From Endozoicomonas sp. (ex Botrylloides leachii) (GTDB lineage: Bacteria > Pseudomonadota > Gammaproteobacteria > Pseudomonadales > Endozoicomonadaceae): DNA of 32,925 nucleotides. Both the position numbers and the translations under genes were made by a program. This document shows positions 2,392 to 7,416 of the stretch, piece after piece. Position 1 is the first letter of the stretch, and each line of letters starts with the position of its first letter. The DNA lies in NCBI GenBank assembly GCA_028728195.1, contig JAQYUY010000143.1, positions 1 through 32,925 of the forward strand, in the 5' to 3' direction. The notes under the pieces are model-generated. The model searched no databases. It was not told the origin of the DNA and saw only the letters and a program-made list of their open reading frames with translations.

Positions 2392-3414
2392 ATGGTTGAT
2401 ACTGATAAACAGTTAATGGTTCGACAGCCCTCAAAAAAAGATATAGCAGTATTAATGATGAGCTTAGGGGAGGAAGGAGCTGCTAGGGTTATGTCCCATT
2501 TGAGTCAGCGTGAGCTACATGACGTCAGTGCTTCTATGGCAGAAATAGAGCCTCTTCGGCGACACCAGATTCAGGAAGTATTGGGCATGTTCTTACACAC
2601 GTACCGGTTTGAAAGTGGAGTCACGGGGTCATCAAAAGGATATCTGGATAAAACTTTGAAAATAGCCTTAGGTGATAAAGAAGCAAAAACGGTCATGGAG
2701 TCTATTTTTGGAGAAGAGTCCAATAGCCTTGATCATGTAAGGTGGATGGATTCCGGTACAATTGCGGAAGTGATTACAGGGGAACACTCTCAATTGCAGG
2801 CAGTGGTTCTAGCTTATCTTGAGCCTGAGCAAGCTGCTGAAGTACTTCAACGCTTACCTGATAAATCTCATGAAGATCTATTATCTCGGGTTGCTCAAGT
2901 AGAGGAGCTTCATCCATCGGTGTTACATGAGTTAGCGGTAATGTTTGATGATAATACGGGCTTGCTGAATAAAGGTCGTAATACTTCGGTTAGTGGCATG
3001 AGGCAAGTAGCGGATATCATGAATCAGATGTCTGATGATCGTGTCCAACAGTTACTTAAGTTTTTTAAACGACAGGATCGTCAGATGGCAGATATGATTG
3101 AGCAGCAAATGTTTGTCTTTGAATATTTGATGCGGTTAGAAGATGACTCACTTACTAAAGTGGTAGCGGAAACCAGCCCTGATATCTTGGCCTTAGCGCT
3201 TAAAGGTGCAGACTCCAGAACCATGGATGCATTTTTGGCTACCATGACGAATAGGGCAGGTCGATTCTTGCAAGAAGACATTAAGAATTTGGGGGTTGTC
3301 CGGGCCAGTCAGGTAAAAGAAGCGCAAAGAGAAATGATAGAGCTTGCCAAAATGCTGGGTGAAGATGGCCAGATCAACCTAAATTTCAATACAGGTGATG
3401 AGATGATTGATTGA
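2392..3414 (+). CDS. fliG: FliG, flagellar motor switch protein
   Basis: FliG is the rotor protein of the C ring. It binds FliF through its N-terminal domain and FliM through its middle and C-terminal domains, and contacts the stator through charged C-terminal residues. The 340-residue protein has the EHPQ motif in the form EHSQ (131-134). By alignment to E. coli FliG, the torque-helix charges are kept as K271, R288, D296 and R304; one of the paired aspartates is glutamate here (E295). The arrangement of the three domains looks complete. It follows fliF by 6 bases. Confidence 0.97.
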   Translation: MVDTDKQLMVRQPSKKDIAVLMMSLGEEGAARVMSHLSQRELHDVSASMAEIEPLRRHQIQEVLGMFLHTYRFESGVTGSSKGYLDKTLKIALGDKEAKTVMESIFGEESNSLDHVRWMDSGTIAEVITGEHSQLQAVVLAYLEPEQAAEVLQRLPDKSHEDLLSRVAQVEELHPSVLHELAVMFDDNTGLLNKGRNTSVSGMRQVADIMNQMSDDRVQQLLKFFKRQDRQMADMIEQQMFVFEYLMRLEDDSLTKVVAETSPDILALALKGADSRTMDAFLATMTNRAGRFLQEDIKNLGVVRASQVKEAQREMIELAKMLGEDGQINLNFNTGDEMID

Positions 3415-3508
3415 TTTTTTTTGAATGATTTTTTTCTTAAGACTGTCAGTATTTAGTCGATAAATTATTGGAAGGAAGTTTTCATCGTTTAATGGAAGGC
3501 AAGATGGC

Positions 3509-5245
3509 ATGAGAACCAGAGGAAAAATCTGGAATCCGGGTGCAGCGACTTTTCAACGTGTTTGCTTTCCTGGCTATGGTGATGACCAATCTGACAGGCA
3601 GCAGGTTATGCCAGCGCAGCGGTCACCTGATCAGGAACAGGCATATGATAAGTCATTCGCTGATAGGGTAAACAGGGTTGATCGGGCTGTAACAATAAAT
3701 AGAGGCGATTATGTATTACCAATGCATAATCAAATACATATTGAACCAGAATACAAGGAAACCGCTGTTCCAAGTGAACCCCTATTTGGTTCAAGTAGTT
3801 TTGTATCACAAGAGGTAGCGTCTACCCATCTATCTTCTAGATTAGACATTAAACCAGAGGTTGCTCAAATGCCGCCAAATTACGCTTCTCCTATGCAATA
3901 TGCAGAAAACTATTCACAGTCATTAGACAGCGATAGTCGTATTACATGCGATGAGTTGTCTATGCCTAAAAAAGAGTCTGTTCCAGCGCAGCAAGAGATA
4001 CATAATATAATGCAGCGTGAGATAAAATGCCTGGGAGAGCAGTTAACGGCAACACTAATAAGTAGTGTCAATGCCCTAGTTAAAGGACAGCAAGAGGTTT
4101 CACCCGAGTCTTCTATTCCAATCTCAGCCACATTGCCACAGGATCACAGATCACGCACTAATGAAACTGGGCGGGTACAGGTTGCAAAAATTGATAGTGA
4201 CAGTGTGAGTTCTTATGAGCAAAAAACGCTACAAGCTAATAAACCGTTGTCTTTTTATGCAAACTCACATGTGCCTAAAGGGGTGGCAACAAGCTATCAA
4301 TCATCTGGTAACCGACATAAAGTCGCTAAGGCATTGGAAGAAAAGCTATGCATATCATTACCTGGGGGCGCAGAGTCTTCCTTTGAATCAGGTAATCTTC
4401 TAGGGACGTCAAAAGTAAAGGAAAAAGTTACTGATAGTGAGCTGAATAATGTGTCTCAATCGAGCAATTGGCAGCAACAGTTTGGTTTATTGAAGCCTTT
4501 TATACAGACGATGTGCCAAGAATTTATTCAAGAGGAGCTACAGTCTTTTCGTGCCGAGTTAACGGAGATGATAAAAGAAAAAGTTCAGCCTACAGTCATT
4601 AGTCAAGATCACAGTAAAGAATCTACTGATGCATTGACTAAAATGAATAGCGCTCAACAAGACAAAGGTGACAGCATAAAAGCAGCAGAACCTTCTGAAT
4701 CGACTGAAAATCATACAGAGTCTACTCTGATTAAACAAACCTCTGATAATGTTAGCCGGTTAGGGTGTTTTTCAGAAGCAGGCGCTGTTGCATATCGACA
4801 TCTCCGGAAAAACCCTGAAAAAGTAATAAGATTTCAGCAGAAAATCACAGCAAGCAATAAGCAAGAAAAAGATGTGCCAAAGCATTCTAAGAAAATAACA
4901 GTAGCTCAAGGCAGTATAAAAAGACTTAGAGAACAACTTAATATGCTTGTTCATGATGGATCGCAGTTCTTTGTTACAAGTAATGAAAAAAAAGTTACGA
5001 AAGATAATCAACAGGCAGAGGAGGCTAATACGCTTAAGAAAAATTCGTTAGCCCCAGAGCTTGAGGTAAGTGAAGCAACAGCGCAGACAGGTTTGAACAG
5101 CCATGAAGCTATTGCGAAATATAAAAGGGTGCATGCACATAATATAGCCGAACCGGCTAGCAATGATAAGCCGACTTGGCGATGGGGGGGGAGTAGTCCG
5201 AGAAGTACCGTAAACCTTTTTTCAAAAGTTAAGCCAACGCTGTAA
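3509..5245 (+). CDS. Unrecognised protein with a FliH-like N-terminus
   Basis: I do not recognise this 578-residue protein. It starts MRTRGKIWNPG, and its residues 6-22 share K-I-W-x-P-G-x4-Q-R-x2-F-x-G with the first residues of FliH encoded just downstream, at the same positions. In FliH the N-terminal tryptophan-containing peptide is known to dock on FliN and FlhA, so a similar docking role is inferred. The rest is Ser/Gln/Glu/Lys-rich and probably disordered, apart from two possibly helical stretches (about 162-194 and 320-360). A basic, potentially helical segment lies at 435-485, and the C-terminus contains WRWGG. I see no membrane segment, signal peptide, FliH C-terminal domain or FliK-type C-terminal domain. 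It sits between fliG and fliH in the same direction. The ATG overlaps the stop of a 6-codon ORF (3492-3512) by ATGA, and GGAAGG lies 9 bases upstream. Confidence 0.8.
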   Translation: MRTRGKIWNPGAATFQRVCFPGYGDDQSDRQQVMPAQRSPDQEQAYDKSFADRVNRVDRAVTINRGDYVLPMHNQIHIEPEYKETAVPSEPLFGSSSFVSQEVASTHLSSRLDIKPEVAQMPPNYASPMQYAENYSQSLDSDSRITCDELSMPKKESVPAQQEIHNIMQREIKCLGEQLTATLISSVNALVKGQQEVSPESSIPISATLPQDHRSRTNETGRVQVAKIDSDSVSSYEQKTLQANKPLSFYANSHVPKGVATSYQSSGNRHKVAKALEEKLCISLPGGAESSFESGNLLGTSKVKEKVTDSELNNVSQSSNWQQQFGLLKPFIQTMCQEFIQEELQSFRAELTEMIKEKVQPTVISQDHSKESTDALTKMNSAQQDKGDSIKAAEPSESTENHTESTLIKQTSDNVSRLGCFSEAGAVAYRHLRKNPEKVIRFQQKITASNKQEKDVPKHSKKITVAQGSIKRLREQLNMLVHDGSQFFVTSNEKKVTKDNQQAEEANTLKKNSLAPELEVSEATAQTGLNSHEAIAKYKRVHAHNIAEPASNDKPTWRWGGSSPRSTVNLFSKVKPTL

Positions 5246-5271: not shown

Positions 5272-6051
5272 ATGAAGAATAAGGTTAAAATATGGGAGCC
5301 AGGCTCAATAGGCTATCAACGATTTCAATTTTTTGGCTCTTCTCAGGAATCAAAAAATCAAGAAAGTATTGGTGATGATGCTGATCTGGTTTCAGAAGAT
5401 GTTACGCCGCTTTCTCCAATTTCACAAGAACTCGATACCGTATCAGAACAGAGCGCGAGCCAAGTAGATCAGGAAACCGGTTTCTCTGTAGAAAAGCACT
5501 TGGAAAATATTACTAAGGAAAGTTACCAGAGAGGATATGAAGAAGGACGTAGGCTGGGTTTTGATGAGGCTATCCAGCAAGCATTAAAGCAGACACATCA
5601 GATTTCTGAGAACCAACAGCAGTTGGCGTCATCACTTGCAGTTCAAATGCAAGGCATCCAAGCACAAACAGTTAATAACAAGGAACAGATGGCTACTTGG
5701 CTGGGAGCACTTGTTGAAGAAGTGTGTCGTCAAGTCCTCCGTAGGGAAATTCAAACAAGTCCTGAGCACATTATTCGGGTAATTAAAGATACATTGATGC
5801 TCATTCCTAATGAGTCGGAATACGTCATTCATGTTAGCGAGAATGATGCGGAATTATTAAGCAGAATAGTACCTGATTTAGGCGTCCATTGGCATATGAT
5901 GCCATCGAGTGAAATAGCCTCCGGTGATTGTTTAATTGTTGCTAAAGACTCTGAAGCTGAAGCAAAAATGGATGTTAGATTAGAAGAGTGTCTGGATATT
6001 ATAAAAGAGTCATTGCCAGCCATGATAACCTCTGAACCCTCAGAGGCGTAG
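5272..6051 (+). CDS. fliH: FliH, negative regulator of export ATPase
   Basis: FliH binds FliI as a dimer, restrains its ATPase activity and tethers the FliI-substrate complex to the C ring and FlhA. The 259-residue protein has the N-terminal docking peptide KIWEPG (6-11), a variable acidic linker to about 80, and a glycine-spaced helix YQRGYEEGRRLGFDEA of the type seen in FliH. A long Gln-rich coiled coil follows. The FliI-binding C-terminal domain contains VEEVCRQVLRREIQ and the segment ending ...DCLIVAKDSEAEAKMDVRLEECLDII. The gene is 26 bases after the FliH-mimic gene and 24 before fliI. Confidence 0.92.
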   Translation: MKNKVKIWEPGSIGYQRFQFFGSSQESKNQESIGDDADLVSEDVTPLSPISQELDTVSEQSASQVDQETGFSVEKHLENITKESYQRGYEEGRRLGFDEAIQQALKQTHQISENQQQLASSLAVQMQGIQAQTVNNKEQMATWLGALVEEVCRQVLRREIQTSPEHIIRVIKDTLMLIPNESEYVIHVSENDAELLSRIVPDLGVHWHMMPSSEIASGDCLIVAKDSEAEAKMDVRLEECLDIIKESLPAMITSEPSEA

Positions 6052-6075: not shown

Positions 6076-7416
6076 ATGGATGATAATGGCCGCTTCGCTT
6101 TATCAAGTCGCTTACAGTCTGTACCTATCGCAAAAATTTCAGGGAAAATTATTTCTATTCGTGGCCTGCTTCTGGAAGCAGTTGGTCTGAAGGTTCCTGT
6201 AGGACAACTTTGTAAAATTATCCAGAAAAGTGGTGAAGAAACAGAGGCTGAAGTTGTTGGCTTTAATGGTAAACATCTTTTTTTAATGTCTCTGTCGAAT
6301 ACTATTGAGGGGATAGCTGCTGGCAATCAGGTCACGCCATTGCCTATCAGCTACAGGGTACCCGTAGGAGACCAACTGATAGGCCGAGTAATTGATGCAT
6401 TAGGCGTACCATTAGATGGTCGCCCGCTTTTGCTTACTGAGTCTATTCCGTTGTCACCAGCTCCTTTAAACCCTCTGGCACGGCAACCTGTTAGTCAGCC
6501 TTTGATGGTAGGTATTCGAGCTATTGATAGTTTATTGACCCTTGGTAAAGGACAACGAGTTGGTTTATTTGCTGGCAGCGGCCTTGGGAAAAGCACATTA
6601 CTTAGTATGATGACGCAGTACACAGAGGTTGATGTAACAGTGATTGGTTTGATTGGTGAGCGCTCTCGGGAAGTTGGAGAACTTGTTAATAAAACGCTTG
6701 GTGTTGATGGGCTCAAGCAGGCTGTTGTCATTGCATCTCCTGGCGATGAGTCGCCTGTCAGGCGTGTTCGTGCTGCACTTTATTGTCATTGTATAGCTGA
6801 ATATTTTCGTAATCAGGGAAAATCAGTTCTGTTATTAATGGATTCGCTGTCTCGCTTCGCTCAGGCATTGCGAGAAGTTGCTTTAGCAGCAGGTGAAACA
6901 CCTGCTTCGCGCGGTTTTCCTCCTTCAGTTTTCAGTCGTATCCCTTTATTAATAGAGCGCGCAGGTCCGGCTATCGGAAGTGGTTTTATATCGGCAGTTT
7001 ATACTGTTTTGGCAGAAAGTGATGATATGAATGATCCTATAGTCGATTGTGCGCGATCGGCTTTGGACGGCCATATTATTTTGAGTCGTTCCCTTGCTGA
7101 AAGAGGACACTATCCAGCTATTGATATTGAAAAATCCATAAGTCGTGTGATGACTAATGTGGTGTCTCAAAGTCACCATAACAGCGCCCTAAGCTTTCGT
7201 CGCTACCATGGGAAGTACCATGAGTCTCGTGATTTAATGGCTATTGGTCTCTATAAAAAGGGAGTTGACCCATTGCTCGATAAAGCTATTGATTTGAATC
7301 CAGTAATGGATAACTTTTTAAAGCAGTCAAGTCATGAAAAAACGCAAGCTACAGACAGTATCCGTCAACTTGATGAGCTGGTTCAGCCAAAGAGCGTTAT
7401 ACCAGAAGCTAGCTAA
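6076..7416 (+). CDS. fliI: FliI, flagellar export ATPase
   Basis: FliI is the F1-beta-like ATPase that energises and primes type III export of flagellar subunits. The 446 residues include Walker A GSGLGKST (167-174), GERSREV (194-200) and Walker B VLLLMD (251-256), followed by SLSRFAQALREVALAAGE. This is the flagellar/type III branch rather than F1. The N-terminal beta-barrel and C-terminal helical domain are both present. Its stop overlaps the fliJ start by one base (TAATG), so the two are likely translationally coupled. Confidence 0.97.
   Translation: MDDNGRFALSSRLQSVPIAKISGKIISIRGLLLEAVGLKVPVGQLCKIIQKSGEETEAEVVGFNGKHLFLMSLSNTIEGIAAGNQVTPLPISYRVPVGDQLIGRVIDALGVPLDGRPLLLTESIPLSPAPLNPLARQPVSQPLMVGIRAIDSLLTLGKGQRVGLFAGSGLGKSTLLSMMTQYTEVDVTVIGLIGERSREVGELVNKTLGVDGLKQAVVIASPGDESPVRRVRAALYCHCIAEYFRNQGKSVLLLMDSLSRFAQALREVALAAGETPASRGFPPSVFSRIPLLIERAGPAIGSGFISAVYTVLAESDDMNDPIVDCARSALDGHIILSRSLAERGHYPAIDIEKSISRVMTNVVSQSHHNSALSFRRYHGKYHESRDLMAIGLYKKGVDPLLDKAIDLNPVMDNFLKQSSHEKTQATDSIRQLDELVQPKSVIPEAS

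Follow-up and report, generated by a model that had tools for sequence, protein, structure and literature searches.

An orphan gene between fliG and fliH of an Endozoicomonas flagellar operon encodes a probable FliH-type docking peptide

In the flagellar operon studied here, a 578-residue orphan protein (gene X) is encoded between fliG and fliH, and residues 1-25 of this protein are very probably homologous to the N-terminal docking peptide (APAR) of FliH. The best reading is that gene X is a partial fliH paralogue, the remainder of which is a lineage-specific, mostly flexible chain. From these sequence comparisons we infer, with a probability of about one half, that the product docks at the FliH site, where it would compete with or stand beside FliH-FliI and affect export. 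The window (the whole stretch of DNA analysed, 32,925 nucleotides) carries on its + strand the order fliE-fliF-fliG-X-fliH-fliI-fliJ-flgA, as read from the open frames and their translations. The features discussed below are the following.

2392..3414, + strand: fliG, the upstream neighbour of gene X (homologues in 40 of 56 relatives)
3509..5245, + strand: gene X, an insertion between fliG and fliH that encodes a 578-aa orphan whose N-terminus is FliH-like (open frame, neighbour-like coding statistics, ribosome-binding site)
3509..3583, + strand: X residues 1-25, probable FliH-type docking peptide, APAR (relatives-only FliH profile, shuffles)
3584..5242, + strand: X residues 26-578, tail without detectable homologue, mostly low-confidence or disordered (database searches, AF2)
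3980..4093, + strand: X residues 158-195, helix predicted weakly that may serve in binding (single-sequence AF2 pLDDT about 50-54; hydrophobic moment p 0.035)
4466..4594, + strand: X residues 320-362, helix predicted weakly that may serve in binding or self-association (single-sequence AF2 pLDDT about 44-61; moment not significant)
4892..5041, + strand: X residues 462-511, weakly predicted helix (single-sequence AF2)
5272..6051, + strand: fliH, intact, 259 aa, with its own APAR (residues 1-25) and a C-terminal FliI-binding domain (PF02108, E 1.6e-14, residues 118-240)
6076..7416, + strand: fliI, export ATPase (position and sequence, from translation)

Coding status and distribution of gene X

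A putative ribosome-binding site, GGAAGG, lies about 9 nt 5' of the ATG of gene X. Its codon usage, reading-frame bias and GC1/2/3 values are like those of its neighbours and the other two frames are negative, hence gene X is a real coding frame. A six-codon open frame, MEGKMA, is located at window positions 3492-3512 with its TGA overlapping the start of gene X (ATGA), and it may be a translational coupler for gene X or a product of chance. The promoter and terminator scan around gene X gave a result no better than shuffles.

The operon is otherwise conserved and gene X is an insertion specific to this lineage, since fliG and fliH were found adjacent in all 26 relatives measured and gene X has no homologue in the family and order genomes. 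This survey of the fliG-fliH intergenic region, which had been proposed in the first-pass annotation, placed the gene, among these genomes, in the host alone. The FliG and FliH matches are 1860 bases apart in the host and at most 365 bases apart in the 26 relatives, where this distance mostly represents the FliH N-terminus. No homologue was found in 36 other genomes of the family and 390 other genomes of the order, nor in a GTDB peptide-pattern scan or in IMG/VR; these searches, which would miss a tail evolving beyond recognition, returned chance matches alone (E 0.03-0.4). A profile of FliH N-termini that included those of X and the host FliH (A1), run over 37 family and 391 order genomes, matched FliH N-termini of the family only, apart from weak matches at E 1e-3 and worse.

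Some observations were also made on the neighbouring genes and their relatives. The fliG product is 60-63% identical to those of other genera (g7, g6) and only 44% identical to that of the same-genus genome G002; the flagellar operon may differ in history from the genome. In the relative G025, a frameshift has divided fliH (L010 2522-3315) in two, one frame corresponding to residues 1-117 and the other to residues 117-254. Some relatives carry a second FliG/FliH system (L064 841-2358, L058 1294-2796, L061 1252-2388), in which FliH has 378-505 aa and ends with GLGAWG[DG]LGQ; directly 3' of this FliH lies a gene resembling a ParM/StbA-type actin (328 aa; MT[SV]LVVIDEGSAQAKATYRA), making an odd FliG-FliH-actin neighbourhood.

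The N-terminal peptide and its origin

The motif K-I-W-x-P-G-x4-Q-R-x2-F-x-G, which had been claimed at residues 6-22 of X and FliH, is seen in the same register in both proteins (KIWNPGAATFQRVCFPG in X and KIWEPGSIGYQRFQFFG in the host FliH), although the likeness extends over about residues 1-25 and not 6-22 alone. The best ungapped match, between residues 1-33 of each protein, has a score of 61 with 10 identities, whereas 400 whole-protein shuffles of X against FliH reached a maximum of 57 and a mean of 36. The same-register score for residues 2-25 stands 6.6 sd over shuffles and was equalled in none of 100,000. A second profile (A2), built from the FliH N-termini of seven relatives with X and the host FliH left out to avoid circularity, was searched against the host genome in six frames; the host FliH came first (E 7.5e-6), X second (E 3.2e-4), and the next match stood at E 0.1. 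When X was compared by BLAST with all open reading frames of the fetched loci, the most consistent match was to FliH residues 1-21 with 43-52% identity, and the overlap was limited to residues 1-32.

A chance or convergent likeness could be argued from the shortness of the stretch (merely about 25 residues) and from the plain BLAST E value of 0.06-0.08 in a small database. It is nevertheless very unlikely, as the two proteins agree in register from residue 1, their genes are adjacent, the independent profile picks out X genome-wide at E 3.2e-4, and none of the 100,000 shuffles equalled the same-register score. The pattern of shared residues also bears on the origin of the peptide. The FliH consensus of the relatives is [KR]IWQPETAA[YF]KRFxFPVH; X retains its 'AA' (A13) and 'FP' (F20-P21), both of which have been lost from the host FliH, whereas G11, Q16 and G22 are common to X and the host FliH and are mostly missing in the FliHs of the two nearest genera. 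Because X shares the latter residues with the host FliH and keeps the former in common with the relatives, duplication within the host lineage followed by divergence fits better than convergence. The earlier proposal that the 5' end of fliH was duplicated thus stands as the best explanation of the peptide, on the A2 match and this residue pattern.

The two copies have since diverged considerably, with 12 mismatches in the first 22 residues; among the identical residues with degenerate codons, four of eight differ synonymously, and the DNA flanking the shared peptide is unalignable between X and fliH. The duplication therefore appears to be old, as far as so few sites can tell. The persistence of both the peptide and the 578-codon frame despite this age suggests that gene X has been under selection.

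Structure and family relations of the tail

The tail of X (residues 26-578) gave no credible match in Pfam, NCBIfam, PHROGs or PDB sequences at E values up to 10, the PDB matches being chance only; this agrees with the first-pass statement that no described family has such a design. The same annotation had described the rest of X as devoid of the FliI-binding domain of FliH and of a FliK-like C-terminal domain, and family searches bore this out. The FliH domain (PF02108) is not detected in X at E up to 10, as against E 1.6e-14 for the host FliH, and the Flg_hook domain of FliK (PF02120) was not found. The G-rich-spaced middle stretch (QRGYEEGRRLGFDEA in the host FliH) is also absent from X.

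The single-sequence AlphaFold2 model of X has a mean pLDDT of 40.8 with no residue above 70 and contains a few long low-confidence helices, the amphipathicity of which is mostly not significant (p 0.035 for residues 158-195). The charge-hydropathy value lies near the border between order and disorder. Low pLDDT and composition taken together indicate that X is probably largely flexible, the single-sequence model of an orphan being weak evidence by itself. A second aromatic motif, PTWRWGGSSPRSTVNLF, is present towards the C-terminus at residues 555-571 (window 5171-5221) with two of the four tryptophans of X, and it is possibly a second docking site.

Docking model, rival roles and related systems

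In Salmonella, residues 1-18 of FliH suffice for FliM-FliN binding and lie along the FliM-FliN SPOA pair, with W7 and W10 clamping the FliN thumb, and the crystallised form is a FliH(1-18)-lysozyme fusion (PMC4443714). This sufficiency and the crystallised fusion mean that the peptide can dock while carried on a foreign chain, and X looks like a natural carrier of this kind, one lacking the ATPase-binding domain. The FliH N-terminal region has also been reported to contact FlhA (Hara 2012, cited in PMC4443714). Residues 1-25 of X would accordingly be expected to dock where FliH does, on the SPOA heterodimer of FliM and FliN at the C-ring base and perhaps also on FlhA. In X and in the FliHs of the nearest genera this peptide has a single tryptophan, at position 8, with F/Y at position 15 and F at position 20 after it; in more distant FliHs of the family, IF replaces IW. 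An obvious equivalent in X can be named for just one of the two clamp tryptophans of Salmonella, which counts against the docking model; with one tryptophan at position 8 in place of W7 and W10, a Salmonella-like binding mode of X can only be inferred. Further, the affinity of X for the site may have been lost, given the 12 substitutions relative to the host FliH.

Since X has no FliI-carrying domain, it would fill some of the FliH sites but bring no ATPase to them. In the simplest case X would restrict or adjust the loading of FliH-FliI, as a competitor or a spacer; alternatively, X may be a tether that keeps its tail, and the partners of the tail, at the export gate. To our knowledge, the only role recognised for the FliH docking peptide is to anchor the export ATPase. 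Were it borrowed by an independent protein, a cell could regulate occupancy of the C-ring site through competition, and X could serve as a natural means of probing how many FliH sites export requires; it would also illustrate clearly how gene duplication can transfer a short docking peptide to a new chain. We only tentatively suggest that X is the first known protein with a FliH-type APAR that is not an ATPase regulator, i.e. a dedicated second ligand of the C-ring site which competes with FliH-FliI or recruits other cargo and adds a control point to export.

Several known systems resemble X closely. FliH (PF02108, the flagellar ATPase regulator or stator) shares with it the docking peptide at the same residues, the same operon and an adjacent gene; X has over twice the length of FliH and lacks both the G-spaced middle and the C-terminal domain for FliI binding. 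The APARs of PMC4443714 resemble the short N-terminal peptide of X, which is likewise expected to lie along the FliM-FliN SPOA domains, whereas all of those described there belong to ATPase regulators, which X is not, and the peptide of X has one tryptophan instead of two. FliK (PF02120, the hook-length ruler) is also a long, largely disordered flagellar-operon protein, as is predicted for X, but X lacks Flg_hook and a normal FliK is encoded elsewhere in the genome. In the diversification of FliY/FliN in the Campylobacter C-ring (PMC6946799), duplication has similarly reshaped the interface between FliH and the C-ring; there the receptor was duplicated, and in case of X the ligand peptide.

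The main rival to docking at the FliH site is that X is a partial duplicate of no important function: the 5' end of fliH would have joined, by accident, a frame that is either new or evolving fast, and the result would be tolerated in the operon while heading for loss. The small size of the genome for its family (2.6 Mb against mostly 3-7 Mb) makes decay plausible, and X has no homologue anywhere searched and a tail that matches no family. However, long neutrality should have destroyed the frame, whereas the 578 codons of X run without interruption and resemble those of its neighbours in usage and GC1/2/3, despite the diverged synonymous sites in the peptide; we therefore hold this reading to be considerably less probable. 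Ranked next, and rather improbable, is a role as a substrate of type III export, or as a protein resembling one: the FliH-like N-terminus would direct X to FlhA/FliN at the gate, and the flexible tail would be exported. The modelled disorder of the N-terminus, the flanking export genes and the interaction with FlhA reported for the FliH N-terminal region (Hara 2012, cited in PMC4443714) are in its favour. FliH itself, on the other hand, remains cytoplasmic. We know of no type III export substrate that uses a FliH-type APAR.

The contents of the rest of the genome bear on the remaining readings. Contig C101 encodes FliM, FliN and FliP, two proteins of the FlhA family are encoded on C130 and C96, and contig C152 (L137, G000:C152:28000-40000) carries an injectisome block, sctN-O-P-Q-R-S-T-U, with its own SctQ having two SPOA domains. 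The proposed receptors are therefore encoded in the genome, and the cytoplasm houses two type III systems; docking of X at the same C-ring/FlhA site is plausible on this basis. X might then separate the flagellar and injectisome ATPase platforms or regulate exchange between them, in view of the two systems in one genome and of the subtype specificity that APARs confer in Salmonella (PMC4443714), but no sequence evidence links X to the injectisome and this role is improbable. The least credible of all is a FliK-like ruler or substrate-specificity switch, which had been considered earlier from an apparently missing fliK and which the size, predicted disorder and operon position of X would suit. 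Contig C108 encodes an ordinary FliK of 380 aa (C108:9227-10369) in which the Flg_hook domain is complete (83.8 bits); its gene adjoins fliL, fliA and motAB, and the fliEFGHIJ-flgA block of the relative G019 is likewise without fliK. The argument from absence thus fails and X is ruled out as a FliK replacement; X also has no Flg_hook and no BLAST match to FliK. On C101 (L136 9815-10991), fliM-fliN-fliP is not followed by fliQ, whereas G019 has the same-strand order fliQ, fliR, flhB, flhA, fliM, fliN, fliP, and hence this cluster was broken up in the host.
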